46,404 bases of DNA, taken from IMG/VR virus record IMGVR_UViG_3300010885_045927, positions 1-46,404 of that record; one strand, written 5' to 3'. Position 1 is the first letter of the stretch, and each line of letters begins with the position of its first letter. The translations under genes were made by a program, and so were the position numbers. A model generated the notes under the pieces. It had not been told where the DNA came from and ran no database searches. It saw nothing but the letters and a program-made list of their open reading frames with translations. The DNA is from a virus. Below, in pieces: positions 2 to 40,093 of the stretch.

Positions 2-223
2 ATGGTGAAAAAAATAGTGACTTGGAAAAATCAATTTCACAAAAACTTGGCGACTTTTTTTTTAATGTCTTCAGTTTTTTTCAATCCGATTGGGTTCGAT
101 TTTCTTTTCAAAATGATTCTAGATTGGACAGATTCTTATTGGATTACGGACGCAATTTTTTATTCCGTTGCGGGTGTTTGTTTCTTATTATATATTTACT
201 TCAGAAAATCTTCTAAAAAATGA
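2..223 (+). CDS. small membrane protein, possibly 5'-truncated
   Basis: A 73-residue product rich in aromatic and aliphatic residues, with two hydrophobic stretches (about residues 16-40 and 48-67) and a basic C-terminal tail, so probably a two-span inner-membrane protein. The ATG is at the second base of the window, so the true start may lie upstream. Its stop overlaps the ATG of the polyphosphate kinase gene as ATGA, implying one operon with coupled translation. I recognise no family. A second frame through the same bases also encodes a hydrophobic peptide but is taken to be a shadow. Confidence 0.55.
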   Translation: MVKKIVTWKNQFHKNLATFFLMSSVFFNPIGFDFLFKMILDWTDSYWITDAIFYSVAGVCFLLYIYFRKSSKK

Positions 224-1320
224 AAGAATTTATTAATGAGATAAAAAGAATCAGTGAAATAATGGGTGTTACTATCAATGAAGATAGTAGATCCAAAGAA
301 GAACACATGCAAAGTATTACCGATAATTTGGTTAAAAATAATTTGTATAGTAAGTCAATTGAGAAGATTCTTGATGATATTATTAAATTAGGTGACGAAC
401 AATTAATTGACTATAGTTTGTTAGAAAGAGGTTTTGATAAGATTTTAAAGATGAAAGGTAATACCAAAAAAAATGTTGAGACATATTTTAAACAGGTATT
501 TAAATCATTGTCTAAAAGACAAAGGGCGGAATATGATATTATGCCTGATATGGATGATTATTCATTTGAGCCCGAAGAACCATCAATTATCCCTAAGAAA
601 ACATATCGTAAAGAATTATTCCAACTTCAGGTTGAATTAAATAAATTAACTGAATGGTTAAATAAAACTAATAAAACAGTTATTATTGTTTTTGAGGGTA
701 GAGATAGTGCAGGTAAAGGATCAACAATTAAAAAATTTGTTGAGAATATAAATCCAAAATCATATAATGTAATAGCTTTGGGAATACCAACACCTGAAGA
801 AAGAAAAAATTGGTGGGATAGATATCGATCCAAAATAGAATCAGGTAAGATAAATTTATTTGACAGAAGTTGGTACAACAGGGGATTAGTTGAACCTGTT
901 GCTGGTTATGGGACACCTGAAGAATATCAGGATTTTATGAATAATGTTGCCAATTTTGAGGAAGGACTAACAAAAGATGGTGATTATCTATTTAAATTAT
1001 GGTTTTCAATTGACAAAGAAACACAATCTCAAAGGTTTACTGCGAGACAAGAATCACCAATAAAATATTGGAAATATTCTCCAAATGACGCAAAAATGCA
1101 AGATTTGTGGGATAAATTTACCGAATACAAAGACAAATTGTTTGACAAGACATCTACTTTAAACAATCCGTGGGTTGTTTTAGATGCTATAGACAAAAGA
1201 GTTTCAGGTTTGAACTCAATCAGATATGTCCTGAAAAACATACCATATGAGGGAAAAAATAATGAGGTATTGGATGTTGAATACCCTGAAGCTATGGTTG
1301 TTTTAAAACCTGAGAATTAA
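220..1320 (+). CDS. ppk2: polyphosphate kinase 2 (PPK2) family enzyme with phage leader
   Basis: Phosphotransferase moving phosphate between polyphosphate and nucleotides (NMP/NDP to NDP/NTP, or the reverse). The PPK2 domain covers about residues 128-345. Walker A is GRDSAGKGS (160-168), the Walker B/lid entry is LFDRSWYNR (213-221), and WFSIDKETQSQRF with the later ESPIKYWKYSP is typical of the family. Residues 1-125 are extra to a minimal PPK2 domain. They begin MKEFINEIKRISEIMGVTINED, which resembles the leaders of virion proteins in this window (EVNQIRKMMGLNLLTEA at 12151) and contains INE|D at 19-22, a T4-type prohead-protease consensus. I infer the kinase may be packaged in the head. 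The start overlaps the upstream stop. Convergent with 1317-1511. The family call is secure; packaging is inference. Confidence 0.93.
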   Translation: MKEFINEIKRISEIMGVTINEDSRSKEEHMQSITDNLVKNNLYSKSIEKILDDIIKLGDEQLIDYSLLERGFDKILKMKGNTKKNVETYFKQVFKSLSKRQRAEYDIMPDMDDYSFEPEEPSIIPKKTYRKELFQLQVELNKLTEWLNKTNKTVIIVFEGRDSAGKGSTIKKFVENINPKSYNVIALGIPTPEERKNWWDRYRSKIESGKINLFDRSWYNRGLVEPVAGYGTPEEYQDFMNNVANFEEGLTKDGDYLFKLWFSIDKETQSQRFTARQESPIKYWKYSPNDAKMQDLWDKFTEYKDKLFDKTSTLNNPWVVLDAIDKRVSGLNSIRYVLKNIPYEGKNNEVLDVEYPEAMVVLKPEN

Positions 1321-1511
1321 TCTCCTGTATCGCCATATCTTTCATTAACTCTAATAAACCAAGAGTCAAATACAAAAAAATACATATACCATCTTAAATC
1401 TAAGATATTGTATTGTTCTGGATATAAATAACACATAACTAACAAATACCCAACTTTTACAGCTAAATAAATTCTAAAAAAAGCAACAATTGTGTTAACT
1501 ATATTAGTCAT
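1317..1511 (-). CDS. small membrane protein
   Basis: A 64-residue hydrophobic, aromatic-rich product with one or two likely membrane segments (about residues 5-30 and 43-52) and a charged C-terminus. Its ATG overlaps the stop of the upstream leftward gene as ATGA, so the two are probably translated together. Its last four bases overlap the end of the convergent ppk2. I recognise no family. Confidence 0.55.
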   Translation of the reverse strand: MTNIVNTIVAFFRIYLAVKVGYLLVMCYLYPEQYNILDLRWYMYFFVFDSWFIRVNERYGDTGD

Positions 1512-1873: not shown

Positions 1874-1880
1874 AATGATA

Positions 1881-1888
1881 CAAAGATA
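1881..1888 (-). promoter_or_regulatory. host-type promoter -7 element TATCTTTG
   Basis: Read leftward the bases are TATCTTTG, matching the Bacteroidota primary-sigma element TAnnTTTG. It ends 7 bases before the ATG at 1873, so the leader would be only a few bases. No clear TTTG -33 element is seen. Confidence 0.5.
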
Positions 1889-1928
1889 AGTAAAATATAC
1901 GATATTTATTTGATAAAGACATTTTATT

Positions 1929-2552: not shown

Positions 2553-2553
2553 T

Positions 2554-4143: not shown

Positions 4144-5196
4144 TTATTTATTAAATCTGTTTAATGCGTTTTGAGTTATGAACACGTAATCTGATTTTTT
4201 AAAATCTTCTAATGTCGCGGAGTCTGTATATGACATGGCTGACTTTAAATACGATTCAAAATTTTCGGTCCATTGTGGTAATGTATAATTAATTTTATTT
4301 GTTTTGACAATACCTTCAGAAGTTTTTAAGTATGTTTTCCCCCAACTTTTTTGAACTTCTTTTGTGCTCATTCCTCTGAATGATTTGTACATAAACTTTC
4401 TCATAAAAGGCACCCTGTACCAAATATCTTTTGCTATATGATTTGGAATTGTGATGTATTTAAATAATTTAGTATCACCGCAGGATTCAATACATTGATT
4501 GAATATCCCTCCTAACATAACGTAATCGGCACCTAACGCTAACGCTTTGATTATGTCGTCATAGTTTTTGAACCCACCATCGGCGACAATTCTAGCCTGA
4601 TATCCGTTTTCAACCTTTAAGACGTAACACTCGGCAATTAATGATGCCATTGGATAATGAACGCCTGTGTTTGCGGATGTTAAACACCCTGAACCACCAC
4701 CAATACCAACACGAACATAGTCAACACCCATCTTTGCGTATTCTTCATATGTTTCAGGATTTGCAATATTCCCTACCATAATTTGATGCTCGTTTATTTT
4801 ACCAAATTCACGTCGAAGGTCAATAAACTTTTGAATAATACCATGTAAATGACTCATATGTCCATTTGCCACATCGACTAAAATTTTAATTATACCGCTG
4901 TACCCTTTATATGACGAATATTCGTTTAAGAAAAATGAAAAATCGTTTAGTGACATTGATACAAACATACTATCGTTATTGAATCTAGGTGACACACCCT
5001 CACCTAATCTTGGTAAACACGGCATGATACCGTTTATAACATATTCATTTGCGTTGTTAACATTTACAACGGTATCCATAGGGGCCGCCATAATTGGTAA
5101 AAAATTTCTTGATGTTCGAGAATTTACCTTTTCTCTCGAATGGATGTTGGTAATTTTGTTTGGCACTAAACTAATGTCTTTAAAGTCAAATTTCAT
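4144..5196 (-). CDS. GMP reductase / IMP dehydrogenase-like enzyme
   Basis: TIM-barrel purine nucleotide oxidoreductase interconverting IMP with GMP or XMP. The 350-residue protein has no CBS domains, as in GMP reductases. Visible marks: MAAPMDTVV near 36-44, ILVDVANGH at 105-113, the active-site loop VGIGGGSGCLTSANTGVHYP (Cys171 as the covalent thiolate), and the phosphate-binding RIVADGGFKNYDDIIKALALGADYVMLGG split across two strands after it. The loop is closer to GxGSxCxT than to a degenerate relative, so the enzyme is probably active. A phage would use it to balance purine pools during replication. It sits in a leftward block with a thioesterase. Whether it works as a reductase or a dehydrogenase cannot be settled from the sequence. 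Confidence 0.9.
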   Translation of the reverse strand: MKFDFKDISLVPNKITNIHSREKVNSRTSRNFLPIMAAPMDTVVNVNNANEYVINGIMPCLPRLGEGVSPRFNNDSMFVSMSLNDFSFFLNEYSSYKGYSGIIKILVDVANGHMSHLHGIIQKFIDLRREFGKINEHQIMVGNIANPETYEEYAKMGVDYVRVGIGGGSGCLTSANTGVHYPMASLIAECYVLKVENGYQARIVADGGFKNYDDIIKALALGADYVMLGGIFNQCIESCGDTKLFKYITIPNHIAKDIWYRVPFMRKFMYKSFRGMSTKEVQKSWGKTYLKTSEGIVKTNKINYTLPQWTENFESYLKSAMSYTDSATLEDFKKSDYVFITQNALNRFNK

Positions 5197-5620: not shown

Positions 5621-6061
5621 TTATTTTGTTAATTCCAAAATTTCAGGTAACTGAAAATCCCTGACATTAATTCCTTTTTTCTTGTATTTTATTTTAACTT
5701 TGTCCGAAATAGGTAACGGAGTACCTTCTTCATCAATTTTAACAAATTTTATATTAGTTTTTACAATTAATTTTTGTTTACCCGTATATACATTATGTGA
5801 TCTGACTTCAATATACAAAGTTAATGAAGTATTTCCAATCTCAACAATATCGGCATAAATTTTAATTAATTGTCCTTCTTTGGCTGGTTTTTCAAATCTA
5901 CAGGCGTCGATTGAAAGTGTTATCATTCTTGGTGTGTCACAAAGTTGCATGGCATAAGCCGCTGCGGCGTTGTCGATCCAAGACAAAATTTCACCACCAA
6001 AAAGGTTGTTATGAATCCCTAAATCTGATTTTTTAACTAAATGTGTGTTGATTAGTTCCAT
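5621..6061 (-). CDS. hotdog-fold acyl-CoA thioesterase
   Basis: Hydrolyses acyl-CoA or a related thioester. The 146-residue single hotdog domain matches the YciA/BFIT-type family: NNLFGGEILSWIDNAAAAYA at about 18-37 is the hotdog helix with the catalytic Asp/Asn region, followed by ITLSIDACRFEKPAKEGQLI and the strand SLTLYIEVRSHNVYTGK. The C-terminal tail is Lys-rich. It is preceded by TATATTTAAAGGT, a variant of the window's promoter motif, ending at the ATG. It heads the leftward block that includes the GMP reductase-like gene. Substrate unknown; fatty-acid or membrane remodelling during infection is only a guess. Confidence 0.88.
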   Translation of the reverse strand: MELINTHLVKKSDLGIHNNLFGGEILSWIDNAAAAYAMQLCDTPRMITLSIDACRFEKPAKEGQLIKIYADIVEIGNTSLTLYIEVRSHNVYTGKQKLIVKTNIKFVKIDEEGTPLPISDKVKIKYKKKGINVRDFQLPEILELTK

Positions 6062-6908: not shown

Positions 6909-7653
6909 AATAGGGTTAAAGGCAATTAACAAATTATTGTCAGGTAAAAAACACACCCATTGTAATTGTGAATTTGTTTTTTCAAATTTTTTTACAATAG
7001 AAGAAAGTTTGTTTGTTGATGTTGAAGTGACAGGACCCGAATCTTACCTTGGTCGTAAATTACACTTTGATGCGTGGGAAATAATTGACGAATCATGGAT
7101 GATGCTAGGTTTTGAATCAACGTTAAGGCTTGATAAAAATTTAATATATTTAGATTTTACATACAATGGAAATAAAATATATAGAAATGACATAGAAGTG
7201 TCATACTCACTAAATGAGGCGGTTATTACACAACTTAAAGCTAGATATGGAGAACTAACTATAAAAACACCAGCCGGAAATGAATTACAAATTGCGTGTG
7301 TATATGAAATGGTAGATACGAATATGGATGGAGAAGGAATTTACAACGACTTGTATGGTTCTATAACTAATATTTGGATTAATGATATTGAAATATTTGA
7401 ACTACCTGAAAATATTGCCAAATCAATTTGTTATTCTTTATCTTATGAAAATGATAGAATGATGGAATGGTTGGGTGATACTTTTTGGGTTGAATATAAC
7501 CCTGTTTTTTGTTTAAATGAAGGTGATTATTATGTTAGTGGAATGGTATCGTTTAATCAAATTTTAGACGAATTCTACGAGCCTTCAATGTCAAAGTATA
7601 TTTCTTCTTGGAAGAAAGGATTAGATGAGTTTATCGAGAAATCTAGGCTTTAA
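6901..7653 (+). CDS. hypothetical protein
   Basis: A 250-residue acidic protein with many aromatic residues and beta-strand-like segments. A GTG six bases upstream could also start it, but the ATG overlapping the end of the previous gene is preferred. The last 11 bases overlap the convergent gene at 7643. No recognised domain or catalytic motif. Confidence 0.6.
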   Translation: MNKIGLKAINKLLSGKKHTHCNCEFVFSNFFTIEESLFVDVEVTGPESYLGRKLHFDAWEIIDESWMMLGFESTLRLDKNLIYLDFTYNGNKIYRNDIEVSYSLNEAVITQLKARYGELTIKTPAGNELQIACVYEMVDTNMDGEGIYNDLYGSITNIWINDIEIFELPENIAKSICYSLSYENDRMMEWLGDTFWVEYNPVFCLNEGDYYVSGMVSFNQILDEFYEPSMSKYISSWKKGLDEFIEKSRL

Positions 7654-8269
7654 ATCTTTTTAAAATTTTTGTCACAACTTCCTTTAATAGGTTTCCTGAA
7701 ATAGTAACTAAACCGGCTGCCATAATTCTTTCGACTATTTCCTTAACATCTTGTGATGAAAAATCTTCAGATGAAATGTTATATAATATTGTCAGGATTG
7801 GAATCAAAAATGCGTAACTGATAATGTTTGTAATTTTATGAAAACTAATATTTAAGCTTGTTATAAATTTGATAAAAACATCTTTTAATTCTTTTCCTTT
7901 TTTTAGTGACTTTATAAACAATGAATAAAGTCCTTCTTCCTTTATTTTATCAACTATTTTATTAATAACTTTTTGATTATCATAATATAATGAAGCTATT
8001 ATACCTGTCAAAGTCAAACAAATTTGTTGTTCAGTAAATTCGTGATTAATTCCGGATATATAATCATTTAAAGGACCAATTATACCACCAATTGTTGCTC
8101 CCCAAGTTAATAAAAACTGAACATCCAAGTTATATTGTTTTGCCGACTTAGATAGAACTTCTTTAACTAATTCATACCCTGATTCTATTTCAGAAGTAAT
8201 ACGATCAGAAACATTTTCTACAATAATTTTTTTTCGTTGTCTTTCTGTAATTAAAACTGATTTTTTCAT
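7643..8269 (-). CDS. membrane-active virion-type protein with leader
   Basis: A 208-residue protein opening MKKSVLITERQRKKIIVEN, a variant of the leaders seen on other candidate head-packaged proteins (ITE as a possible cleavage site). It has several hydrophobic segments with Gly (about residues 52-70, 84-98, 146-166 and 184-200), suggesting an amphipathic or membrane-inserting protein. It is transcribed divergently from 8282 from an overlapping palindromic promoter. An internal head protein or injection-linked membrane protein is plausible but not shown. Confidence 0.6.
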   Translation of the reverse strand: MKKSVLITERQRKKIIVENVSDRITSEIESGYELVKEVLSKSAKQYNLDVQFLLTWGATIGGIIGPLNDYISGINHEFTEQQICLTLTGIIASLYYDNQKVINKIVDKIKEEGLYSLFIKSLKKGKELKDVFIKFITSLNISFHKITNIISYAFLIPILTILYNISSEDFSSQDVKEIVERIMAAGLVTISGNLLKEVVTKILKRFKA

Positions 8270-10763: not shown

Positions 10764-12131
10764 ATGGGAAACCAAAATGACATATTAAAAAGAGTTAAAC
10801 TTCTTATGGAGTATGATACTTCTATGACACTAAATGAAAACATTTTGGTTTTAGAACAAAATCCTAATGCTAAATATTTAGATCCTAATTATACTAACAG
10901 AGGTAATGTTAAAGCTGGTTCAGATTATTTTGCGGGACTACAGATGCAACAAAAGCAAAAAATAAGTATGATACAATTTTGCGAAAACCCTAAAAACTCC
11001 GCAAAATGTAAAAAACTTAAAGAAACACCAAATGTATCAATTTGGGAAGCCACTGTGGATAATATAGGGAAAGATGCTTTATTGACTGCCGAAATAGGAA
11101 AAAAATTAGCAATTAATTTAGGTAAAGGAGATTTAAGAGGGGCTTTTAGAGATTTAAGGGATTTTTTCATTGAAACTTATAGTGGGGCGTTTGTTGATAT
11201 ATTTGTTTCAATTGCAGGTGTTGAAGTAGGCGGACCTTTACTTATGGAAGCTTTGGAGATTGCGTTTATGGCGAATGATTTATTTTATTTTTTGGAGAAT
11301 AAAAGTGGTAAAAGAGACTCTAGTAATTATACCACATGGGACGGTATAGTGTGGCAATTTACAAATAACATTGATTTTCAAAAATTAATAGTGGATATGA
11401 TGGTGGTTGCGACTAGGGGGGTAATGAGAAATGCTGGAAAAGCTCTTAATTGGTTAAAGAAAGGAGGTAAATCAATTATCACTACAATACTTGGATTTGT
11501 TAGTAAAATTAAAGGATATTTACCTAAATTAGGTGTGGTTGGAAAATTTTTATCTGACAAAATAGACAAAATTACTGAGTTTTTAAATAAGTTAATTAAA
11601 TCATTTACCGAAAAAACGACACAAGTTGCGAATAAATCTAAAGTTGGAGCAAAAACCGCTAATAAAACTACCGAAAAAACCGCAAAAACACAAGTAACAC
11701 ATCTATCAACGAGAAAATTATTAAGATTAATTAAGAGTAAAAAGTTGGTAGGATATTATAAAAAGTATATTAGAAGAATACCTAAAAAAATTCCTGAAGC
11801 AACACTAGCAGGTGCATTTGGAATGTTAGTACAAGCTGGTTTTATGATAAGTCTTCAAAAGTTTATGTCTGATCCAAAAAGTGAAGACGTAGTACAAGGA
11901 TTAGTTGAGAATGATAGTGTAGATAAAACAGTGACAGAAACTCAGAAAGCGGTAATTAAGAGATGTATTAGAGATACCCCATCAATTAAAAATGCAAAAA
12001 AAGTAACATTTGCAGGTCAAGAGGGGGAATATGATATATTTATGGTAGACGGCATTAAATACACATATAAAGATCCGTATAAGGAAGAAGGACCTGGACA
12101 ATATGAATTAATACCTTATAAAACAAAATAA
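10764..12131 (+). CDS. large internal virion protein candidate with leader
   Basis: A 455-residue protein. The leader DILKRVKLLMEYDTSMTLNE|N ends in LNE (23-25), a T4 prohead-protease type site. A hydrophobic Gly-rich region (about 135-185, including FVDIFVSIAGVEVGGPLLME) and several Lys/Thr-rich stretches follow, with a hydrophobic helix near 345-370. There is no enzyme motif. It opens a rightward series (10764, 12151, 13248, 13889, 14869) in which every start carries a related leader, as expected for a cluster of head-packaged proteins. It starts 4 bases after a TATATTTATAA motif. Function inferred from leader and context. Confidence 0.6.
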   Translation: MGNQNDILKRVKLLMEYDTSMTLNENILVLEQNPNAKYLDPNYTNRGNVKAGSDYFAGLQMQQKQKISMIQFCENPKNSAKCKKLKETPNVSIWEATVDNIGKDALLTAEIGKKLAINLGKGDLRGAFRDLRDFFIETYSGAFVDIFVSIAGVEVGGPLLMEALEIAFMANDLFYFLENKSGKRDSSNYTTWDGIVWQFTNNIDFQKLIVDMMVVATRGVMRNAGKALNWLKKGGKSIITTILGFVSKIKGYLPKLGVVGKFLSDKIDKITEFLNKLIKSFTEKTTQVANKSKVGAKTANKTTEKTAKTQVTHLSTRKLLRLIKSKKLVGYYKKYIRRIPKKIPEATLAGAFGMLVQAGFMISLQKFMSDPKSEDVVQGLVENDSVDKTVTETQKAVIKRCIRDTPSIKNAKKVTFAGQEGEYDIFMVDGIKYTYKDPYKEEGPGQYELIPYKTK

Positions 12132-12150: not shown

Positions 12151-13242
12151 ATGGAAAAAAAATTATTAACCGAAGTAAACCAAATCAGAAAAATGATGGG
12201 TTTAAACTTGTTAACAGAAGCTAGTCCTTGGGCTGACATTATTTCTCGTGTTGCAGGTGGTGTCGCAAGAAAAGATATTGATTTAATGATTGGTAAATCA
12301 TTAAAAAAAATACTAATAACGGACATTGAATCGGTTTTAACTAAGGCCACCGCAGGACAGGTGTTGAAAAAGGCGGATTTAGATATTTTGAAAGCACTTG
12401 ACTCTGAAATAAAAAATGCTGGAAATAGTTTAGGAAAAACAAATGCAAAAGGACTTGTAGGGGTATTTGAAGATGCAATGAAGGCTGCCAAAGCTGCAAA
12501 AGATCCTACAAAATACAAACTTTTACAGAGTCAAAAAGATGAAATAGCTAACTCATTAAAATCAAGTACTGGATCATTACCTAATCCAAAAAAGGAGGTA
12601 GTTAAGAGTGGTAAGGAAGGGTTAAAACAAGTACAAAATATTGCAAAAGAATTTGAATCAACTTACCGAAAGGCGTTTAAAGATGAGGGTTCTAAAACAA
12701 TACTTAAAAACGTTGCTCAGGAATTAGAAGGAAAACCAATGTCACAAGTTAGGTCTATGGTTGAACAGAGAATTAAAAACTTAGATGATGCACTTTCAAA
12801 ATTACCTGAAAAACAAAAAACTGATTGGAAATCACTTGCACTAAAACTTGTAGGATATAGTGAAGACTCTTTAGGTAGAATGGAGTTAGGTAAAACGGCA
12901 TTAGGTGTTGGTGCTAGAACATTATTAGTGTTAAGTACCTTTGATATCGCTAAAAATTATGTTGAATTAGGTAAAACACATCCTGAACTTGGAGGGCCCG
13001 GAAAGTTTGTTGGGGCATTTGCGGAAGTTTTAGCAGATATGGGTATCGGAGCTGGTGTTGGTGCATCACAGTCTGTTGATAAAGGTAGTCAAGCGATAAA
13101 AAGAGAAAAAGACATTGATACTGGAGTAGTTAATACAGGAGGAACTGATAATAAAGAAAAAGAAGAAAAGAAATCATCGGAAGAAAAAAGAAGATCATCA
13201 GATGGTGAAGAAGAAAAACCTAAAAAGAAACCAAGATTTTAA
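12151..13242 (+). CDS. internal virion protein candidate with LLTE|A leader
   Basis: A 363-residue protein starting MEKKLLTEVNQIRKMMGLNL and then LTE|A at 21-24, the clearest copy of the type-2 leader in the window. The body is helical and Lys-rich. A Gly/Ala-rich hydrophobic segment (about 290-312, DMGIGAGVGA) could insert into a membrane. The last 50 residues are a charged, disordered Lys/Glu/Ser tail. It is co-transcribed with 10764 and 13248. Likely packaged in the head and possibly ejected; not recognised as a known family. Confidence 0.6.
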   Translation: MEKKLLTEVNQIRKMMGLNLLTEASPWADIISRVAGGVARKDIDLMIGKSLKKILITDIESVLTKATAGQVLKKADLDILKALDSEIKNAGNSLGKTNAKGLVGVFEDAMKAAKAAKDPTKYKLLQSQKDEIANSLKSSTGSLPNPKKEVVKSGKEGLKQVQNIAKEFESTYRKAFKDEGSKTILKNVAQELEGKPMSQVRSMVEQRIKNLDDALSKLPEKQKTDWKSLALKLVGYSEDSLGRMELGKTALGVGARTLLVLSTFDIAKNYVELGKTHPELGGPGKFVGAFAEVLADMGIGAGVGASQSVDKGSQAIKREKDIDTGVVNTGGTDNKEKEEKKSSEEKRRSSDGEEEKPKKKPRF

Positions 13243-26293: not shown

Positions 26294-27736
26294 ATGAAAA
26301 AGAATACAATACATGAGGAATTATTAAGAATCCATGAGTTAACTTATGGGAAAAAATATTTAACTGAAAATAATGACAATTTTATAAATAAAATTCTAAA
26401 AATTTTAGGAATTGATAATTTAGATTTGGATAAAATTAAAACAGAAAAAACTGATGTATTGACTAACAATATAGATGATTTTTATGAAACATTGAATGAC
26501 TCAGTTGTTCTTGGTGGTATTTCTCAGAATGACGAAACAACCGAAGATGGTAAGAAAAAAATTGAGGCTTTACAGGTTGGTTTACAACTATTGGGGTATG
26601 ATTTAAAAGAGAATGGGGTAAACGGTAAATTTAACGATGAAACTAAAAATGCAATAAAAAAGTTTATGGAAGATAATTCCATTAAGATAAAAGAATCTTT
26701 TTTAAAAAAATCTCAAAATTTATTAAGTGAAATTAAGTTTGTTAATTTTAAAGATGTGTCTTATGGTAATTTACGATTTGCGAAAAAAGTTTTAAATGAT
26801 AAAATAAATAAAAGTTTATTAGATGATTTAGATAGAGCTGGAGAATTAGCCGGAGTAACAGTTAGTATTACGACAGCTAAATCAGGGCATGGAGTAAAAA
26901 CAAAAACAGGTAATATAAGTAGACACTCTAAAGAAACTGCGGTTGACATTGGTATTTTAAATGGTGTTAGTGGAAAAGGCGCTAGCAATCCTAATAATGG
27001 TAATCCTGAATTTAGAAAATTAGGAAACAAATTAAAAGATGCTCTTGTATCATTAGGTTATGTTTGGAATACTGAAAGGGGTAACCAAAAAGCTGTTTTA
27101 TGGCAAACTACATTAGGTGGAAATCACTACAACCATCTACACGTATCTAATAACGGGGATCCAAGTGATGTAAAAACACCAATAGAAAAAAATGATTCAG
27201 ATAATAAAACAATCTTACCTGTTATTGCAACTGTCGAAGTATTAAAAAAATTAATAGAATTACTAAAACAAAAAAACATAACATCAACAGATTTAAGCAT
27301 TTTTACCGGTAAAAAAGATGAGGTAAGTATGATTACTACTGATGAGGATTTTTATAAATCAATATTAAAATGTGTTGGTGCTCCTGAGTCAGAAGAAAAC
27401 ATGAAATTTATGTACGCTTGGAGACAATCTGAAGGTGGTAAGTATAAGAACAACCCATTCAATACCAAAAGAGATTATCCTAACGCAACAGGAAGTGGAA
27501 TAAAGAATTACCAAACTCGTGAAGATGGTGTTAATGCAACTTGTGAAACCTTGAAACTAAATTATTATACTTGTATCGTTGATGGATTAAAGAATGATAT
27601 AGGATCACTTGAGATATCACAAAAATGTGACTCCGCTTTGAAAACTTGGGGAACACATCAAACAAATCCTTTAATTACTCAAGTTTTAAAAGGATATGAG
27701 AGCGGAAATGAAATGAAACCAAATCCAATATCTTAA
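26294..27736 (+). CDS. three-domain peptidoglycan lysin with packaging-type leader
   Basis: 480 residues. The leader ELLRIHELTYGKKYLTE|N (LTE at 23-25) matches the type-2 propeptides. Domain 1 (about 86-127) is a peptidoglycan-binding fold (IEALQVGLQLLGYDLKENGV ... DETKNAIKKF). Domain 2 (about 175-290) is a zinc DD-peptidase of the M15 type, with SRHSKETAVDIG (His211, Asp218) and NHYNHLHVS (His283). Domain 3 (about 350-460) is a lysozyme/transglycosylase-like module with YAWRQSEGGKYKNNPFNT (Glu380) and GVNATCETL. It would cut both peptide and glycan bonds. With a leader and a late promoter it is more likely virion-borne than a free endolysin, though a dual role is possible. Confidence 0.85.
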   Translation: MKKNTIHEELLRIHELTYGKKYLTENNDNFINKILKILGIDNLDLDKIKTEKTDVLTNNIDDFYETLNDSVVLGGISQNDETTEDGKKKIEALQVGLQLLGYDLKENGVNGKFNDETKNAIKKFMEDNSIKIKESFLKKSQNLLSEIKFVNFKDVSYGNLRFAKKVLNDKINKSLLDDLDRAGELAGVTVSITTAKSGHGVKTKTGNISRHSKETAVDIGILNGVSGKGASNPNNGNPEFRKLGNKLKDALVSLGYVWNTERGNQKAVLWQTTLGGNHYNHLHVSNNGDPSDVKTPIEKNDSDNKTILPVIATVEVLKKLIELLKQKNITSTDLSIFTGKKDEVSMITTDEDFYKSILKCVGAPESEENMKFMYAWRQSEGGKYKNNPFNTKRDYPNATGSGIKNYQTREDGVNATCETLKLNYYTCIVDGLKNDIGSLEISQKCDSALKTWGTHQTNPLITQVLKGYESGNEMKPNPIS

Positions 27737-28251: not shown

Positions 28252-28815
28252 ATGAAAAAAGTTATAAAACTAACAGAATCTGACTTAGCTCGTATTGTAA
28301 AACGAGTAATAAGAGAGCAAGAATCAACTACACAACAATCAGATGGAGGACAACAACCGGTTTTAAAATTAGAAACGGGTGAACCAGTTGTTGCTAATTT
28401 TATTAGAAATCAAGATGATATTAATAAATTTACAACGTGGAGTGGAGATTTAGGTGATGTTTTATCAATTGTTAGTAATAACGCTAACAAATTGAAAGGT
28501 TTTGATTATCAAACAATTGGTAATTTAGCTAAATCAGGTCAATGGATGGATCCAAAAACAGATAAAGTTAAATCTGAATTTGGCCCTTTGAGACGATTAA
28601 GTTTAGCTATAGGTGACTTATTAAGTATTTCATTAAAATATCCAAATATGGATCCAAATAATGAATCTAGAATTTCAGCTTTCCAAAATGCTTTATCAAA
28701 GGCGGTTTTACCTGAAGTTAAAGCTTTTGTTCAGTATGATTTACCAAAATATGGATCATCTTTTTGGGCATTATTTAAGGATATCTATAACACACAGAAA
28801 TCAAGTTTAGGATAA
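28252..28815 (+). CDS. head-packaged protein candidate with KLTESDL leader
   Basis: 187 residues. It opens MKKVIKLTESDLARIVKRVI and then REQ, the archetype of the type-1 leader: a basic amphipathic helix ending in IRE|Q, an IxE cleavage consensus. A Gln/Ser linker (23-35) leads to a helical soluble domain (about 45-187) without enzyme motifs. The ATG at 28252 is used because an upstream TTG frame start lies inside the promoter motif. Its own late-type promoter and a strong terminator make it a single-gene unit. Likely an internal head protein; function unknown. Confidence 0.65.
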   Translation: MKKVIKLTESDLARIVKRVIREQESTTQQSDGGQQPVLKLETGEPVVANFIRNQDDINKFTTWSGDLGDVLSIVSNNANKLKGFDYQTIGNLAKSGQWMDPKTDKVKSEFGPLRRLSLAIGDLLSISLKYPNMDPNNESRISAFQNALSKAVLPEVKAFVQYDLPKYGSSFWALFKDIYNTQKSSLG

Positions 28816-31279: not shown

Positions 31280-32110
31280 ATGACACAAAATATTCAATTC
31301 CTAAAGGAAGTACTTTCCGTCCCTACTAAAACATATAAAGAGGATCTTATGATTCAATTCATTGAGGATTGGATGATTCAAAATAAGATTGAATATTATG
31401 TTGACGAACACTATAACATTTATGCTACAAAAAAAGAATCTGAAGTTTCTGATGATTTTTATTTTCCTTGTGTAGTATCACATACCGATACGGTTCATAA
31501 TATAGACACAATTAATGTCATGGAAGAAATGTTACCTGACGCTCAAGAACAACTTAAACTCTCTCTTAAAGCTTATAATAACGAAGGAAACCCAACAGGA
31601 ATCGGTGGTGATGATAAGTGCGGCGTTTTTGCTTGTCTGACGATGTTGAAAGAATTACCCTATCTTAAAGCGGCTTTCTTTGTTTCTGAAGAAACAGGTT
31701 GTCACGGATCAAGAAGAGCCGATCCCAATTTCTTTAATAATGTTGGTTATGCTATTCAGTTTGACGCTCCTGAAAATTGGATGATTACCGAATATTGTAT
31801 GGGTGTTAAAATGTTTGATAGAGAATCTGAGTTTTTCACAGAATGTAAACAGATATTATCTGAGGAGTTTCCTAAAGAACAACAATATATGAAACATCCT
31901 TATACTGATGTTTTCGCGTTAAAAAATAGCTTTGATTTTTCTTGTATTAATATATCAATTGGTTACTATCAATATCATACTCGTAATGAATATGTTGTAA
32001 TTGATGATGTTTATAACGGAATCAATGTTGGTAAAAAAATGATTGATAAGTTGGGTTACCGAAAACATACATACAAAGAAGGGGTTGATTCTAAAAAGTG
32101 GGTTTTTTAA
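31280..32110 (+). CDS. M20/peptidase T-like zinc peptidase
   Basis: 276 residues. Metal-ligand motifs of the M20/M28/M42 co-catalytic zinc clan appear in order: VVSHTDTVH (His68, Asp70), GIGGDDKCG (Asp111/112), SEETGCHGS (Glu137/138), IQFDAPE and YHTRNEYVVIDDV near the C-terminus. Likely reaction: removal of an N-terminal residue from short peptides, or amide hydrolysis of a small molecule. The lid domain is reduced, so the protein is shorter than the usual 400-residue members. Expressed from a full host-type promoter, suggesting early use, for example amino-acid supply or destruction of a peptide signal. A strong terminator follows. Confidence 0.82.
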   Translation: MTQNIQFLKEVLSVPTKTYKEDLMIQFIEDWMIQNKIEYYVDEHYNIYATKKESEVSDDFYFPCVVSHTDTVHNIDTINVMEEMLPDAQEQLKLSLKAYNNEGNPTGIGGDDKCGVFACLTMLKELPYLKAAFFVSEETGCHGSRRADPNFFNNVGYAIQFDAPENWMITEYCMGVKMFDRESEFFTECKQILSEEFPKEQQYMKHPYTDVFALKNSFDFSCINISIGYYQYHTRNEYVVIDDVYNGINVGKKMIDKLGYRKHTYKEGVDSKKWVF

Positions 32111-32138
32111 AAAAAAAGGGGGGTTATTCCCCCTTTTT
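32109..32138. terminator. bidirectional terminator
   Basis: A-run, GGGGGG-TTATT-CCCCC, T-run. It lies between the convergent peptidase and Clp genes and overlaps the last bases of both. Confidence 0.88.
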
Positions 32139-34166
32139 TGTTTTCTTAACTTTCTTCTCTTTTTGTTCTTCTAAAACTGCCACATCATCAACAATCTTTA
32201 TGATGTATTTGTTATTGATTGATAAATTATTCTTTAAAATTTCTTCAGAAATAAAATCTTCTACTTTATCTTGGATAGCACGTTTCAATGGACGAGCACC
32301 ATATACTTCATCAAAACCTGCTTTAGAAACGTAGTCCACCACAGTGTCATCAAAATCAATGTTGTATTTAATACCTTCAACTCTTGATTTTAACTTGCCA
32401 AGTTCAATTATTGCAATTTTCTTAACATCATTTTCATTTAGAGTGTTGAATACGATTGTCTCGTCAATACGATTAAGGAATTCAGGGGCAAAAAACTTCT
32501 TTAATTCTTTATTTAATGTGTCTCTTCTTATTTCCTCTTTGATGTATTTGTTATCATTACCAAAACCAATCCCTGATCCAAAGTCCTGTAACTTTTTAAC
32601 GCCCAAGTTAGATGTCATAATTATTAGACAATTTTTAAAGTTAATTTTTCTACCAATGGCGTCAGTAACAAAACCATCATCCAATATTTGTAACATTACT
32701 GAAAAAATATCTTTATGCGCTTTTTCAACCTCATCAAATAAAACTACAGAATAAGGTTTGTTCTTAACCTGTTCAGTTAATTGTCCACCTTCATCATAAC
32801 CAACAAATCCTGGAGGGGAACCAATTAATCTAGATATGTTATGTTTCTCTTGGTATTCAGACATATCAACACGAATTAACGATTCCTCACTACCAAAAAT
32901 TTCTTTTGCCAATTGTTTTGCCAAATAAGTTTTACCGACACCTGTACTACCTAAGAAAATAAATGAACCGATGGGTTTGTTAGGATCTTTGATACCTAAT
33001 CTATTTCTTCTGATTGATTTAGATATTCTTGACACCGCCTCAGATTGCCCAATAACTAATTCATTTAAACTATCTTCCAAATTAATTAATGATTTTGAAT
33101 CCTCAATACTCAATTTAGTGACAGGAATATTTGTCATATTTGAAACAACTTCATACACCAAATCAATTTCAACTTCTTTCTTATTCCCACTCATTTGTTC
33201 TTCAAATTTCTTCTTTTCAAAATTAAGTTGTGTTAGAATTTTCTTTTCCTTATCTCTTAGTTGAGCGGCTTCTTCATAGTTTTGTTTCTTAACAACCTCA
33301 ATCTTTTCTTTCTTAATGTTTTGAGCCTGTAATTTTAAATCCTCAATAATTTCTGGCATTTTAACATCTACCTGACTTCTAGCCCCAACCTCATCTAAAA
33401 TGTCAAATGCTTTATCAGGAAACTCTCTATCTGTAATGTATCTATCTGCTAAATCCACACACGTTTGAATTACATCATCGTTATATGTAACCTTATGATA
33501 TGATTCGTATCTATCTTTAACATTCTTTAAAATGGTAACGGTGTCTTCTTTTGAAGATCCCTCAATTACTACCTTTTGGAATCGTCTTTCTAATGCACCA
33601 TCTTTTTCAAAATTCTTACGGTATTCATCTAGTGTTGTAGCTCCAATACATTGGATTTCACCACGAGCCAATGCCGGTTTGAAAATGTTTGAAGCGTCTA
33701 ACGAACCTGATGAATTTCCTGCACCCACAATTGTGTGAATCTCATCAATGAAAATAATTACATTTGGATTTGATTGTAATTCCTCAATGATTACTTTCAT
33801 CCTTTCCTCAAATTGTCCTCTATATTTTGTTCCTGCAACAATTGATGTCATATCTAATGATACTAATCTCTTATCTACTAAATTACGAGGACATTCTCCT
33901 TGATAAATTTTCATTGCTAACCCTTCTACTACGGCTGTTTTTCCTGCACCGCCAGGACCTAAAATAATTGGGTTATTTTTCTTTCTACGAGAAAGAATTT
34001 GAGCCATTCTTAAAATTTCTCTATCTCTACCAATAACAGGATCTAATTTTCCTTGTTCGGCTAATTTCATCAAATCACGACTAAAATTATCTAAAACAGG
34101 TGTTCCGCTATCCGACTCTGGTTTTTTCTTATCTTTTAATCCGTCATTGTCTAATGATTCTATCAT
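32124..34166 (-). CDS. ClpC/ClpA-like double-AAA+ unfoldase lacking the N-domain
   Basis: ATP-driven protein unfoldase. 680 residues. AAA-1: Walker A GPGGAGKT (70-77), Walker B IIFIDEIH (137-144), arginine finger in ALERRF. A short coiled linker (about 275-330) with [12 protein letters not shown] resembles the UVR segment of ClpC. AAA-2: GSTGVGKT (406-413), [11 protein letters not shown] (474-484), [17 protein letters not shown]. The loop GSGIGFGN (IGF at 533-535) matches the ClpP-docking tripeptide, so it may feed the host ClpP. The Clp N-domain is absent; the first 25 residues are a short charged tail, so substrate choice is probably novel. A single leftward gene. Hosts carry ClpC/ClpB; a phage copy may redirect proteolysis or aid head assembly. 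Confidence 0.92.
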
Positions 34167-34240
34167 ACTTTTTTTCTTTAAGTATAATAAACATAATAAA
34201 GTTTTTCAATTGTTAAGGTATTTATCTAAAAACAATTTAT

Positions 34241-34462
34241 ATGAAAAGAATTAGATTAACTGAAAAAGATATGGTTAAATTAATTAGTAAAATAATTAAA
34301 GAGGAAGAAGAAACTCAACCATACGAATCATTACCATTTACCTCATTTAGAAGTGATGTTGAAGGAGAAATGGTTGATATGGTAAAATTACCGGGTAATA
34401 CTTGGCAATTCTCAGTTGGTGCGAGAGTTTGGAAATTAACGTTGTCTAAAGGAAGTTTATAA
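34241..34462 (+). CDS. small protein with RLTEKDM leader
   Basis: 73 residues. MKRIRLTEKDMVKLISKIIK and then EEEE is a type-1 leader with IKE|E as the cleavage consensus. The remaining 50 residues look like a small beta-sheet ending KLPGNTWQFSVGARVWKLTL. It precedes the L,D-transpeptidase-like gene, sharing one base (TAATG), and a GTATTTATCTAA promoter-like element is upstream. Two adjacent genes with type-1 leaders suggest co-packaging. Confidence 0.6.
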   Translation: MKRIRLTEKDMVKLISKIIKEEEETQPYESLPFTSFRSDVEGEMVDMVKLPGNTWQFSVGARVWKLTLSKGSL

Positions 34463-35691
34463 TGAAAGTAATAAAGTTAACGGAATCCGACTTAATTAAA
34501 ATTGTTAAACAAGTATTATTAGAACAAACTATCCAAGGTACTGGTGATGACCCATGGGAGTACAAAAAAGATGGTGGTAAATACTACGCAAGAAAAAAAG
34601 GTTCTAATAATTGGGTATTAACAGGGGGTAATGCAGAACAAGCAATTAAAACTAAGATATTTGGTGATAAAACATCGTCAACCCCCAAACCAAAATCTAC
34701 AACTAAAACAACTGTAACTCCTAAAACAACTACCACAACTACCACACAAACTAAAGTTGTACCAAACAAAGTTATTACAAACTTCAATCCAATCGTAGTT
34801 CAAAAGACAGATACATTATCACCATATTCTCGTGATACATTAAAACTTAAAGGGGATTTTCTATTTAAAAGCGTTCAGGAAGCCACTTCAATGATTGGTA
34901 ATATGTCAAAAAGGACATTTGAACAACTTAATGAAATCAAAAGTAAAAATACGTTTAATGGTAAAAGTTTTGTTATTATAAATAAAGATGCTGCAATAGC
35001 ATCATTGTTTGATGGTAATTTTAAATTTATAACTAAATCAAGTATTGTCACTGGTAAATTTAAAGATACTGGAGAAAAAGCAATGACTCACCACGATTGG
35101 GCTGAAAATACCAAAAATTGGGCAAAAAAAAATCCAGTAACCGACGAGAAGAAAAAAGTATTAAATTATTGGGAAAAACAAAAAAATTTGTTAAAATCGG
35201 ATGGTACTATTGATTGGAGTCTTTTGAAAAGTAAAAATGTGAAAGATTACCCTTTGTCATATACAATGTTAAAGGATGAGGGAATGGCTGTCACAAGATC
35301 AGGAATATTTAAAGTCGGTGCGGGTTTCGAAAGCCACTATGCAGGTGACCCTAATACTGTAAATACTTTCCCATTAGTCGATCCAAAAACTGGTGATGTT
35401 TTTGCTCAAGCGGTACACGCATATTCAGATAAAAACAGAGGTGAATTAATTAAAAAAGCTTCATCACAAAACATTGAGTTAAATAAAGATTTTACTAGAA
35501 TGGGATCAGGATGTATAAATGTTGATAAAAATTTTGTTGATAATATCAAAAAATACAATCCACAATTTGTTGTTATTTTACCTGATTCAGGAGGAAAAGT
35601 TGATTTAACAACTATATCTATGAAAACTTGGACTCAAAAAATAATAGATATTGGAGATAATTGTGTAAAATCACTTTCTAATCTTTTTTAA
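34462..35691 (+). CDS. L,D-transpeptidase-like (YkuD) protein with KLTESDL leader
   Basis: 409 residues. The leader MKVIKLTESDLIKIVKQVLL ends LLE|Q. Next is a small WVLTGG-type domain (about 30-68), then a Thr/Lys/Pro linker (72-100). The C-terminal domain (about 165-360) resembles the YkuD L,D-transpeptidase fold: KSFVIINKDAAIASLF at the start, AVHAYS with His319, and MGSGCINVDKNFVDNI with Ser349 and Cys351, the usual HxG...SxGCI catalytic pair. Such enzymes cross-link or exchange peptides in peptidoglycan. The exact HG is HA here, so activity is uncertain. A cell-wall enzyme packed in the virion could reseal or reshape the wall during entry. Confidence 0.72.
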   Translation: MKVIKLTESDLIKIVKQVLLEQTIQGTGDDPWEYKKDGGKYYARKKGSNNWVLTGGNAEQAIKTKIFGDKTSSTPKPKSTTKTTVTPKTTTTTTTQTKVVPNKVITNFNPIVVQKTDTLSPYSRDTLKLKGDFLFKSVQEATSMIGNMSKRTFEQLNEIKSKNTFNGKSFVIINKDAAIASLFDGNFKFITKSSIVTGKFKDTGEKAMTHHDWAENTKNWAKKNPVTDEKKKVLNYWEKQKNLLKSDGTIDWSLLKSKNVKDYPLSYTMLKDEGMAVTRSGIFKVGAGFESHYAGDPNTVNTFPLVDPKTGDVFAQAVHAYSDKNRGELIKKASSQNIELNKDFTRMGSGCINVDKNFVDNIKKYNPQFVVILPDSGGKVDLTTISMKTWTQKIIDIGDNCVKSLSNLF

Positions 35692-35735: not shown

Positions 35736-36326
35736 ATGAAAACAACACTAATCATCGTTTTATTATCATTAGTTACATTTTTTAGCACTAATACTATTAA
35801 TTCTGAAACTAAGAAAGAAAGAGTTATTTTTATAAGACCATTAGGTAATGTTAATCCTGAGTATGTTTCTTTTGTTAAATCGTCAATTGAAGATTTTTAT
35901 GGGTTTAAATGTGAGGTGTTATCTACAGTAGAGGTTAGTGATGATATTTTAAGTAAAAGTAAAAAAAGATGTGACGCAAATAAAATTTTAACTAAATTTA
36001 AAACAGATTCAAATATAGTTCTTGTTACTGAAAAAGACATATGTCATAAAAGAGGTAAAGTTGACGAGTATGGTATTATTGGTTTAGGATTTTGCCCTGG
36101 TAAAGTGTGTGTCATATCAACTTGTCGAATAAAAAATAAAGTAAGTAAAAAAACATTTTATAACAGATTAAAAAAAGTTACCTTACACGAAATGGGGCAT
36201 AACTTGGGAATACCACATTGTTCTACTTCTTACAAATGTTTAATGAATGATGCTAAAGGTACTGTAAAAACAATAGATAAAGAAGATTTATACATATGTG
36301 ATAATTGTGTTAAGAAAATTAAATAA
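35736..36326 (+). CDS. exported archaemetzincin-like metalloprotease
   Basis: 196 residues. A signal peptide (about 1-18, TLIIVLLSLVTFFS) is followed by a metzincin domain. HEMGHNLGIPH (151-161) is the three-His zinc site with catalytic Glu152. It is followed by C162, C168 with LM, and CDNC (188-191), the extra four-Cys zinc site that defines archaemetzincins (family M54). An upstream Cys set (CHKR, GFCPGKVC, TC) adds disulfide potential in the periplasm. Substrate unknown. An export signal on this normally cytoplasmic family is unusual. Preceded by a full host-type promoter and ended by a strong terminator, so it is a single early-type gene. Confidence 0.85.
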   Translation: MKTTLIIVLLSLVTFFSTNTINSETKKERVIFIRPLGNVNPEYVSFVKSSIEDFYGFKCEVLSTVEVSDDILSKSKKRCDANKILTKFKTDSNIVLVTEKDICHKRGKVDEYGIIGLGFCPGKVCVISTCRIKNKVSKKTFYNRLKKVTLHEMGHNLGIPHCSTSYKCLMNDAKGTVKTIDKEDLYICDNCVKKIK

Positions 36327-36327
36327 C

Positions 36328-36358: not shown

Positions 36359-36378
36359 ATTTTTAAAGAAAAAAAGTT

Positions 36379-36621: not shown

Positions 36622-36655
36622 TAAATAATTGTGTTAATCACAATATTTATTAGTT

Positions 36656-37408: not shown

Positions 37409-37419
37409 TATATTTATAA
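37409..37419 (+). promoter_or_regulatory. phage promoter motif TATATTTATAA
   Basis: Exact motif directly after the nucleotidyltransferase stop codon and 12 bases before the ATG at 37432. Confidence 0.55.
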
Positions 37420-37431
37420 AGAAAAAATATT

Positions 37432-37623: not shown

Positions 37624-37642
37624 AATAAAAAAAACATATATA

Positions 37643-38869
37643 ATGGGAAATTTAAAACCAATTGGAAGTGAAAAACTAGAAGGTTTCGACAAATTAAAAA
37701 GAATCATGGAAATTGCCAGATATAATGAAGTCACTCCAAACCCTATAAACGAAAACTCTTCTGTTGAGTATTCAATCATGTTAGCTGATGGAGTTACTTA
37801 CCAAATTAATAAAGAAAAAACTGGTTATGTAATTAAAAAATCAATAAATGAAGGGACTTTTGATTATATTGAACCGATGAAAAATAGAAGCCATTATTCA
37901 TCATATTCTCAAGCTTTCAAAAGACTTAACTTAATAGCTAAGGAAGTTAATAAGTTGACAGGTAATGATTCTGAAATTTCTTTATTTTCAGAACAAAAAA
38001 AGTACACATTAAAAACTCCTATGCCTGCTGCTGCACCATCACCTGAACCTTCACCGGCACCTGTTGATGACGCACCGGCACCTGATATGGGTATGGATAT
38101 GGACGCTCCGGTGCCTGATATGGATGGTGAAGATTTACCTGATACAGATATGGATAATCAATCTCCTGATATGGGGGATGAAGACAGTGGTGAAGAAATG
38201 TCAATTAAATCTATTCAGAAACTTACAGGTAAGTTAGGACAAAAAATACGATCATATTCTTCCGAAGAAGAATTAACGTCAGATGATGCAAAATATATAA
38301 TTAATTCTATTTTATCCGCAATTGATTTATCAATATTGGACGATGAAGATAAAGATGACATTATGTCTAAATTTGAAGGTGAAGAAGATATGGATTCAGA
38401 TATGGATGTTGAATCACCTGAATCTCCAGACATGGGAGGTGAAGAAGAATTACCTGAACCTGAAATGGACGGTGAAATGGCTGAGATGGATACATTAGGT
38501 AATCATTTTACTCGTAAATTCAAAAGTAATTACGGCGGAGCTTTAATGGATAAATTTGAAACACATGAAGCGGAAGGTATTAATAAAATAATGGATGAAA
38601 TCTTCAGTGAGTCAAAAGTAGAAAAAATTATTACAAAATATTTTAAAATTGACGAAAAAGAAAAAAAATTAGTTGAAAGTAAAAATAAAAATAAAGTGAT
38701 TACTGAATCTAAAAAAGTTGCACAAACTTATAAACAAGAAACTGCAGCTGAAAAACTAATAAACAAATACCCAAATTTAACTTTAATTGGAAAATCAAAT
38801 AAGAATAACTTAGTATTCCAATTAGAAGGTAAAAAAATAAGAATCACACCTGAAGGAAGAGTTCTATGA
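37643..38869 (+). CDS. acidic prohead scaffold-like protein with INE|N leader
   Basis: 408 residues. The leader FDKLKRIMEIARYNEVTPNP is followed by INE|N (35-38), again of the prohead-protease type. The middle (about 130-180 and 245-285) is a low-complexity Asp/Met/Pro/Glu tract with repeated PDMD and MDGE. Between the tracts is a helical domain (SIKSIQKLTGKLGQKI ... DDAKYIINSILSAIDLS) that I recall from conserved marine phage head proteins. The last 40 residues form a basic strand-rich end (KKIRITPEGRVL). Acidity, helix content and position upstream of terminase fit a head-core scaffold. It overlaps the next gene by 4 bases. Confidence 0.65.
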   Translation: MGNLKPIGSEKLEGFDKLKRIMEIARYNEVTPNPINENSSVEYSIMLADGVTYQINKEKTGYVIKKSINEGTFDYIEPMKNRSHYSSYSQAFKRLNLIAKEVNKLTGNDSEISLFSEQKKYTLKTPMPAAAPSPEPSPAPVDDAPAPDMGMDMDAPVPDMDGEDLPDTDMDNQSPDMGDEDSGEEMSIKSIQKLTGKLGQKIRSYSSEEELTSDDAKYIINSILSAIDLSILDDEDKDDIMSKFEGEEDMDSDMDVESPESPDMGGEEELPEPEMDGEMAEMDTLGNHFTRKFKSNYGGALMDKFETHEAEGINKIMDEIFSESKVEKIITKYFKIDEKEKKLVESKNKNKVITESKKVAQTYKQETAAEKLINKYPNLTLIGKSNKNNLVFQLEGKKIRITPEGRVL

Positions 38870-39270
38870 GTTATCTAGTGTATGTTAATGGACTAGGTCC
38901 GAACTATAAAGGAGATAATATGTATGAATTTATTTTTTCGGACGTAAAAGAAGTATGGGGGGAAGAATGGGATTCAAAACCGGCAAATGGTTACCCAAAA
39001 CCTCCCGATTTAGAATATATAAAAAAAGTCGGAGTTTTAAAAGATAGTGGAGTTGAGTTCACTCTTATACAAAACTCCGATTTTTTTAGTTTAACAGATT
39101 CTATTGATGGGGTTATTTGTTTGGTATGGGAAACTGAAAATGATGAAAAATCATCGACTCAAAAAAGAATAGTTTTTAGATTTGGTGAAACTGAAAAAGA
39201 AGTAAAAGATAAATTATATGAACGAGATATCGTTCTTGAATTTGAAAAAAAAGTAATATATGAAACCTAA
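38866..39270 (+). CDS. conserved T4-like phage protein
   Basis: 134 residues. YLVYVNGLGPNYKGDNMYEF, then EVWGEEWDSKPANGYPKPPD and FTLIQNSDFFSLTDSIDGVI, is a pattern I recall as a conserved small protein in marine T4-like phages, located among head genes as here. Function unknown. It overlaps the scaffold-like gene by 4 bases and the next gene by 11 bases. Confidence 0.7.
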   Translation: MSYLVYVNGLGPNYKGDNMYEFIFSDVKEVWGEEWDSKPANGYPKPPDLEYIKKVGVLKDSGVEFTLIQNSDFFSLTDSIDGVICLVWETENDEKSSTQKRIVFRFGETEKEVKDKLYERDIVLEFEKKVIYET

Positions 39271-40093
39271 TAAGAAAATTTTAGATTTAATTGAAAGTGG
39301 TTTCTCTTTCAAAACTCTAAACAAATTGTCTGAGACACAATTGACACAACTACACTCAAGAGTTGTTACTGAACAAGGATCTAGTAATGTTGTTAAAAAA
39401 CAAAATAAATCTACAACGTACACCATTCCGTCGGGAACCGCAAAAACAAGTGGTGCAGATGTTGATGGTATGGCAATTAAAACTGATGCGTCAGGTAATA
39501 TCACATTAACAAAAACTGAGACGACAGAAGGAAAATCTAAAAAATCAAAATCTAAAAATCCTTGGGCGATTTGCACATCATCATTGGCTGATGAGTTTGG
39601 AACTTCCGAAAGAAGTGAATGGACAAAATCTCAAATGAAAAAATATGAGAAATGTGTGATGGGTGTTAAAGAAAAAATGAATGAAGGTAAAAATCCTTTT
39701 GAATTTATTTTGGAAAATAAAATTACTCAGTTAATTGAAAAACACGTACATCCAAAAATGACTAAGAAAGATTTTTTGGAGGTTTTAACTAAGAAAATGA
39801 TTCAGGAAACTAAGACAAAGGAAAAAGAAAAGGAAAAAACCAAACCTACTACCAAACCAAATACTCCATTTTCACCAAAACCAGGACCGAATCCTGCTCC
39901 TAAAGCAAAAAAGAAAAAAATGGAGGAACAAGGTACTAAAACAAAACCAACAACAAAACCAACAACAAAACCCGGAACAAAACCCGGAACACCTTTTTCA
40001 CCAAAACCAGGACCTAACCCGGCTCCTAAAGCTAAAAAAGGTAATATACCTGATTGGTTTACATTTGATAAATTAGGATTAAAAATTAAATAA
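39260..40093 (+). CDS. virion-cluster protein with leader and duplicated Pro-rich tail
   Basis: 277 residues. The N-terminus (KKILDLIESGFSFKTLNKLS ... SRVVTEQG) is a helical leader with VTE|Q. The central conserved-looking domain has NPWAICTSSLADEFGTSERS, KYEKCVMGVKEKMNEGKN, and a helix with KHVHPKMTKKDFLEVL. The C-terminal 80 residues are Lys/Pro/Thr-rich with the 17-residue TPFSPKPGPNPAPKAKK given twice, 42 residues apart. A WAxCxxS...KCVxxVK arrangement occurs in other large-phage proteins I have seen, with no known function. Likely structural. Confidence 0.6.
   Translation: MKPNKKILDLIESGFSFKTLNKLSETQLTQLHSRVVTEQGSSNVVKKQNKSTTYTIPSGTAKTSGADVDGMAIKTDASGNITLTKTETTEGKSKKSKSKNPWAICTSSLADEFGTSERSEWTKSQMKKYEKCVMGVKEKMNEGKNPFEFILENKITQLIEKHVHPKMTKKDFLEVLTKKMIQETKTKEKEKEKTKPTTKPNTPFSPKPGPNPAPKAKKKKMEEQGTKTKPTTKPTTKPGTKPGTPFSPKPGPNPAPKAKKGNIPDWFTFDKLGLKIK
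39863..40039 (+). repeat. two-copy coding repeat (51 bases each)
   Basis: Copies at 39863-39913 and 39989-40039 encode the same 17 residues with several synonymous differences (for example CCG/CCT, GCT/GCA). The protein sequence rather than the DNA is conserved, which points to selection on the peptide. Confidence 0.7.

Follow-up and report, generated by a model that had tools for sequence, protein, structure and literature searches.

The DNA analysed here, hereafter the window, is the whole of the 46,404-base virus record IMGVR_UViG_3300010885_045927 (positions 1 to 46,404). Matches to PHROGs place its terminase and portal protein in the T4 type:

41465-43246, + strand: terminase large subunit (context; phrog_2, E=2.7e-38)
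43434-45272, + strand: portal protein of the gp20 type (context; phrog_213, E=3.4e-67)

In relatives of this virus the genes for gp21, gp22 and gp23 come after the portal gene. The window terminase shares at most 28% identity with listed phage records and has many relatives, of 69-94% identity to it, among uncultured viral contigs. The protein encoded at 25361-26236 combines a signal peptide with a C-terminal sorting domain (type A) of the type IX secretion system (T9SS; TIGR04183, E=5.6e-7; PF18962, above cut-off) and, judging by these features, may be exported through that system of the host; the presence of such a domain on a phage protein makes a Bacteroidota host plausible, and the large uncultured phages of the lineage probably infect Bacteroidota. 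Elsewhere in the window are an M54 metalloprotease that resembles archaemetzincin and seems to have a signal peptide (35736-36326), a GMP reductase/IMP dehydrogenase-like protein (4144-5196), a hotdog thioesterase (5621-6061) and a T4-type RNA ligase 1 (17305-18363).

The leaders found at the N-termini of window proteins are as follows; a slash marks the junction between leader and the remainder of the protein (the cargo), and proteins are named by the first coordinate of their gene:

220-282, + strand: type 2 leader MKEFINEIKRISEIMGVTINE/D of a polyphosphate kinase 2 (PPK2; gene 220-1320, E=4.9e-70)
1929-1973, + strand: weak leader MENSLKKLIKQVLKE/D of a phrog_7595 protein, resembling the second half of type 1 only
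8216-8269, - strand: leader MKKSVLITERQRKKIIVE/N of a 208-residue protein (7643-8269), junction kept in orthologs
10764-10838, + strand: type 2 leader MGNQNDILKRVKLLMEYDTSMTLNE/N of a 455-residue protein (motif class E, which has no internal occurrence in the window)
12151-12219, + strand: type 2 leader MEKKLLTEVNQIRKMMGLNLLTE/A of a 363-residue protein (sequence motif)
13248-13271, + strand: short leader MKIELLKE/E (motif class C)
13889-13987, + strand: leader offering two candidate junctions, MIKNNFIITE/EDKSHILKLTRLPNFKNPITLKE/D (motif classes B and D)
14869-14982, + strand: leader ending SKIIKNRFKIILE/D (IILE/D), with the best profile score in the window after 39260
26294-26368, + strand: type 2 leader MKKNTIHEELLRIHELTYGKKYLTE/N of a peptidoglycan-binding, endolysin-like protein (PG_binding_1, E=2.5e-4, below the family cut-off)
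28252-28317, + strand: type 1 leader MKKVIKLTESDLARIVKRVIRE/Q of a 187-residue protein (48.6 bits; cargo without family match)
34241-34303, + strand: type 1 leader MKRIRLTEKDMVKLISKIIKE/E of a 73-residue protein (39.2 bits)
34462-34524, + strand: type 1 leader MKVIKLTESDLIKIVKQVLLE/Q of a 409-residue protein (45.4 bits)
37643-37753, + strand: N-terminal region ending PINE/N of a 408-residue protein (orthologs compared)
39260-39373, + strand: leader ending KLSETQLTQLHSRVVTE/Q (VVTE/Q) of a 277-residue protein; orthologs have LINE/N, LVKE/A and MISE/Q
40095-40244, + strand: 50-residue leader ending LRNLKE/APIDYGD of a 455-residue protein adjoining the terminase (ortholog junctions)

That unrelated proteins carry common leaders had been proposed in a sequence-only reading of the window. 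The leaders are real and the proposal was mostly correct, although the one assigned to 9226 is unsupported, that of 1929 is weak, and four carriers (13248, 14869, 39260 and 40095) had been overlooked.

The type 1 assignments to 28252, 34462 and 34241 are borne out by the profile scores, the three proteins having in common the consensus KLTESDLxxIVKxVIxE. The 17-column profile was built from 26 distinct leaders of the window and its relatives, picked by their first seven residues only, and the columns outside this selection are nevertheless conserved, with the final Glu in 26/26 and I, L, V or M two columns earlier in 25/26. No other window protein scored highly; the next were 39260 (7.8 bits, at residue 22) and 14869 (-0.2 bits). 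When the search was widened to 80 leader loci and four long contigs, 276 matches were obtained, of which 269 lay at protein positions 0-12, one was a start miscall and six were internal, and the resulting 270 N-terminal carriers formed 134 unrelated cargo clusters. Among 186 distinct leaders, Glu was found in 183 and I, L, V or M at -3 in 185, which is not the A/S-x-E motif of phiKZ. Conservation ends at this near-invariant Glu, the residue after it being variable (Q 74, N 31, E 20, S 18, G 12, D 11), and many leaders hold two candidate sites, LTE/S and INE/Q. The bare [IL]xE motif is enriched just 1.3-2.0x in the first 40 residues; as it is common near N-termini, it is weak proof by itself and plain counting was dropped. 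For 34462, no relatives were confirmed in a search of viral contigs, and a single-sequence structure model, poor overall, gave a helix at residues 8-25 with low confidence.

There is the question of whether this similarity resides in the peptide at all, or whether it is a DNA or RNA element, or the trace of recent gene duplication, with no functional peptide involved. Some adjacent leader genes are indeed paralogous (G008, 54070-55660) and same-codon use is overall slightly over expectation (0.565 vs 0.462), but the 134 cargo clusters are unrelated, same-codon use within the window equals expectation, and identity among leaders at codon positions 1, 2 and 3 is 0.71, 0.81 and 0.53. As the second position is the most and the third the least conserved, it is the peptide and not the DNA that is conserved; the codon pattern largely refutes such an origin, which we consider hardly credible.

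The strongest sequence evidence that the leaders are cleavable propeptides comes from the swapping of leaders at a constant junction. Orthologs of 40095 have 31 distinct leaders that range from 6 to 50 residues and are often unrelated; in 30 of them the last three residues are [ILVM]xE, always at the one place, and the predicted mature proteins then start with APIDYGD, QIDYGD or DIDYGD. MAKIKE and MKKYKLHE are among these leaders, as are a 50-residue hairpin and one of type 1; the triad is replaced by TRE in L017 and by RTE in G034, the latter missed by the search pattern. A model of the window protein places E50 in a low-confidence linker between the helical hairpin and the body, and a fold search returned no PDB match and one uncultured-phage protein. 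The type 2 leader claimed for 220 is confirmed, every distinct PPK2 variant keeping [ILV]xE at the junction (TINE/D, PIIKE/D, QIQE/G, FLKE/E, NLNE/D, TLNE/E, PLNE/M and SLTE/S among relatives). Junctions in the DHH phosphoesterase family read LINE/S, LIKE/S, LISE/S, LILE/S, ILKE/S, IISE/S, ILKE/T and VITE/T, and in the RYMFFSNL family, which adjoins the capsid genes, the leader differs in nearly every contig. In L049 the 39260 ortholog has the leader KINESDLKKIVNVLLQE/A, which resembles type 1. When all type 1 cargos were tested together, 46 homologs had no type 1 leader, and 35 of these place [ILVM]xE no more than two residues away from the predicted junction; the chance level, about 11%, is our own estimate based on how often the motif occurs internally.

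The remaining assignments vary in how well they survive comparison with orthologs. The leader of 7643 is upheld, the IVE/N of the window protein corresponding to ITE/S, LTE/G, ITE/S, LTE/S and IVE/S in five orthologs. For 1929 the close orthologs end in LQE/A and the one in G001 has a full type 1 leader, whereas the window protein has the second half only and a clean leader is mostly absent from the wider family (595+ loci). For 26294, which has a type 2 leader, homologs of the domain carry different leaders. In 37643 the site occurs in 27/33 distinct orthologs and is missing in 6/33, but the entire N-terminus is conserved there. The leaders proposed for 10764, 12151 and 13889 do match the motifs, as does that of 13248, and none of the four has an ortholog among the sequences compared; that of 12151 is similar to two leaders of the Flavobacterium phage immuto, MKKQILSEQF[KR]RMQ[FK]LAGIITE/S. 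The leader claimed for 9226 lacks support, as conservation of its N-terminus runs on into the body of the protein and the [IL]xE junction is not kept.

A suitable protease, for which a search outside the window had been suggested, is encoded by the relatives. Between their portal and capsid genes, beside the scaffold and outside the window fragment, lies a gene for an S77 (gp21-type) protease matching PF03420 (E down to 8e-28) and the T4 gp21 structure 5jbl (E=1.5e-15) and retaining the segment SRG(L/V)GS. Among contigs of at least 94 kb found by the leader alone, 18 of 19 encode this protease and gp23; the 274-kb leader contig G029 has neither protease nor capsid gene and may be a fragment. 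The LINE/A(S/T) of the relatives' capsid protein aligns with FLTE/A, the cut site of T4 gp23, Glu being present in 6/6 aligned sequences, and gp22 of the lineage has LNE/Q close to its N-terminus. In control scans of the T4 genome the corresponding sites were MKTYQEFIAE/A (ipII and ipIII), STITE/A (ipI) and MAKINELLRE/S (gp24). The idea that the leader mimics a segment of the gp22 scaffold was rejected, gp22 scoring low on the type 1 profile. One 269-kb contig, G034 (L319-L332), holds two prohead proteases and two gp23 genes of different lineages (31291-34976 and 233494-237947); either the assembly is chimeric or the phage has two sets of head genes.

Possession of the protease does not imply a type 1 leader: 14 contigs drawn from the 1929 family at large, of which nine encode gp21, gave no type 1 leader at the stringency used. 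This proposed implication was therefore discarded and the type 1 leader is regarded as restricted to its lineage. Short-peptide tblastn searches against phages gave no match. In the openly accessible literature that was searched no report of these leaders was found, although one may exist in subscription papers. Two distant phages carry other leader types, MKISEKKLRDIVREEIRNVVGE/D in W01 (LR756508, L163-L187) and MKKQILSEQFRRMQKLAGIITE/S in W02, the cultured Flavobacterium phage immuto (L188-L196).

Because leaders are swapped at a constant triad, relatives encode an S77 protease and the capsid protein has a matching site, the interpretation as capsid propeptides is well supported at the sequence level, and the earlier suggestion that head propeptides are cut here after (I/L)xE can be retained with V added to the permitted residues. 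We thus consider that the leaders are probably cleavable N-terminal propeptides of prohead proteins, cut by a gp21-type protease, with the cargo retained in the head. The suggestion of two packaging routes, one for each leader type, finds no support and was rejected because the types exchange on the same cargo, orthologs of one protein having either.

From its sequence the type 1 leader is predicted to form a strongly amphipathic helix, the helical part having a hydrophobic moment of 0.81 vs 0.37 for shuffles. The same would be expected of helices that are never cleaved and dock their proteins onto a structure of the phage or the host, I-x-E being the mere end of the helix, and cleavage of the leaders here is itself a prediction. 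However, most orthologs of 40095 have leaders of 6-10 residues and no helix and still keep the [ILV]xE junction, for which a docking helix does not account, and the triad is identical to the capsid maturation site; we regard docking as quite improbable. Against propeptides, on the other hand, it may be said that PPK2, the DHH phosphoesterase and the superoxide dismutase described below could act in the cytoplasm, and that the 6-residue leaders of the 40095 family cannot carry much targeting information.

If the leaders are propeptides, the events envisaged are these. The precursor would be synthesized late, and its leader (in type 1, the amphipathic helix) would bind the prohead core and pull it into the assembling head, by analogy with T4. 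Closure of the shell would be followed by activation of gp21, which would cut scaffold, capsid and cargo alike at the [ILV]xE sites seen in them; the leader fragments would then exit whilst the mature cargo would remain with the DNA. Most of the cargo would probably enter the next host alongside the DNA, as T4 internal proteins do. T4 serves as the model of protein injection, and inhibitors of host defences have turned up among its internal proteins. That the leader is cut off and does the targeting, and that the cargo is in the virion and is injected, we infer.

The likeness to T4 goes some way. In T4 the cut rule is L/I-X-E and the targeting propeptides are of 10-19 residues (PMC9026906), and the internal proteins have nothing but the leader in common (PMC12373910). 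As in IPI, IPII, IPIII and Alt, a short N-terminal propeptide ending (L/I)-x-E stands on otherwise unrelated proteins, the cargo is small and fast evolving, and a gp21-type protease is encoded (as seen in relatives), located between portal and capsid genes and matching Peptidase S77; it is, however, diverged from T4 gp21, and we take its specificity to be predicted. The leader sequences are unrelated to those of T4, the type 1 profile giving MKTYQEFIAE a score of about -30 bits; they are of 6-50 residues and several exchangeable types, accept V and M at -3, and by motif count are found on roughly 30-45 carriers per long contig, enzymes among them. As predicted for the leaders here, N-terminal propeptides are cleaved from many inner-head proteins of phiKZ and SPN3US (PMC5694885), and those propeptides contain redundant cleavage sites (PMC9026906, PMC5694885). 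Theirs are cut at A/S-x-E and, in SPN3US, are mostly longer than 100 residues, whereas those described here are short and end in I/L/V-x-E. Dozens of unrelated proteins of these phages appear to bear short detachable tags that address them to the head, in the style of T4 but with other tags and on a larger scale.

There is the possibility that gp21 does cut the leaders and that the carriers are parts of the prohead core, degraded or structural, with few of them injected. In T4, gp21 cleaves core proteins too, namely gp22, gp67 and gp68 (PMC5694885), and 40095, 39260 and 37643 adjoin the head genes and are conserved across the lineage. Unlike scaffold, however, the type 1 carriers are mostly orphans of about 80-250 residues, together with enzymes and wall-binding proteins, and as a general account this is unlikely. 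Some of the processed proteins may nonetheless be parts of the head structure. The claim that the injected proteome could be defined from sequence alone accordingly goes beyond the data; the earlier list is also too broad, not all of its proteins qualifying.

Returning to the leaders as propeptides of packaged proteins, the nature of the cargo was assessed in 99 carriers. Pfam matches comprised peptidoglycan-binding domains (3), DUF6576 (2), PPK2 and weak ATPase_2 and PIN; PHROGs added endolysin-like matches and phrog_7595, the remainder being orphans, and profiles of defence systems gave a single marginal match to the 99 cargos. Leaders on replication enzymes had been named as a finding that would speak against head targeting; in one 322-kb relative, ribonucleotide reductase, primase, SNF2 helicase, sigma factor, HSP70 and a ClpB-like ATPase were all leaderless. 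With all motif classes counted, each of four contigs of 269-322 kb had 32-44 candidate carriers, an upper estimate because false positives such as the capsid protein itself are counted, and long relatives may on this sequence evidence have about 30-45 leader-bearing proteins each. It is conceivable, if rather short of probable, that about a tenth of the genes of the lineage are addressed to the head by interchangeable leaders and that the virion delivers with its DNA a large and rapidly changing set of effectors and enzymes, including polyphosphate kinase, superoxide dismutase, DHH phosphoesterase and wall-binding lysins as working enzymes.

If the leader rule holds, sequence alone is enough to pick out candidate head-packaged and injected proteins of an uncultured lineage common in IMG/VR, and the 134 mostly orphan families would become prime candidates for anti-defence or takeover functions. 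The leader sequences might also be tried as tags that direct proteins into phage heads.

In L296:12077-13618 (G032) a superoxide dismutase domain follows a divergent N-terminus, which in three relatives ends LLTE/M or LMTE/M, making this protein a possible head-packaged enzyme as far as its sequence goes. Type 1-like segments were also seen inside longer proteins, in G005 (115049-115801, residue 102), G022 (141671-142969, residue 295), G032 (306427-307839, residue 251) and L206 (2179-3633, residue 265); these may be polyproteins from which the prohead protease releases two cargos, or products of fused genes.
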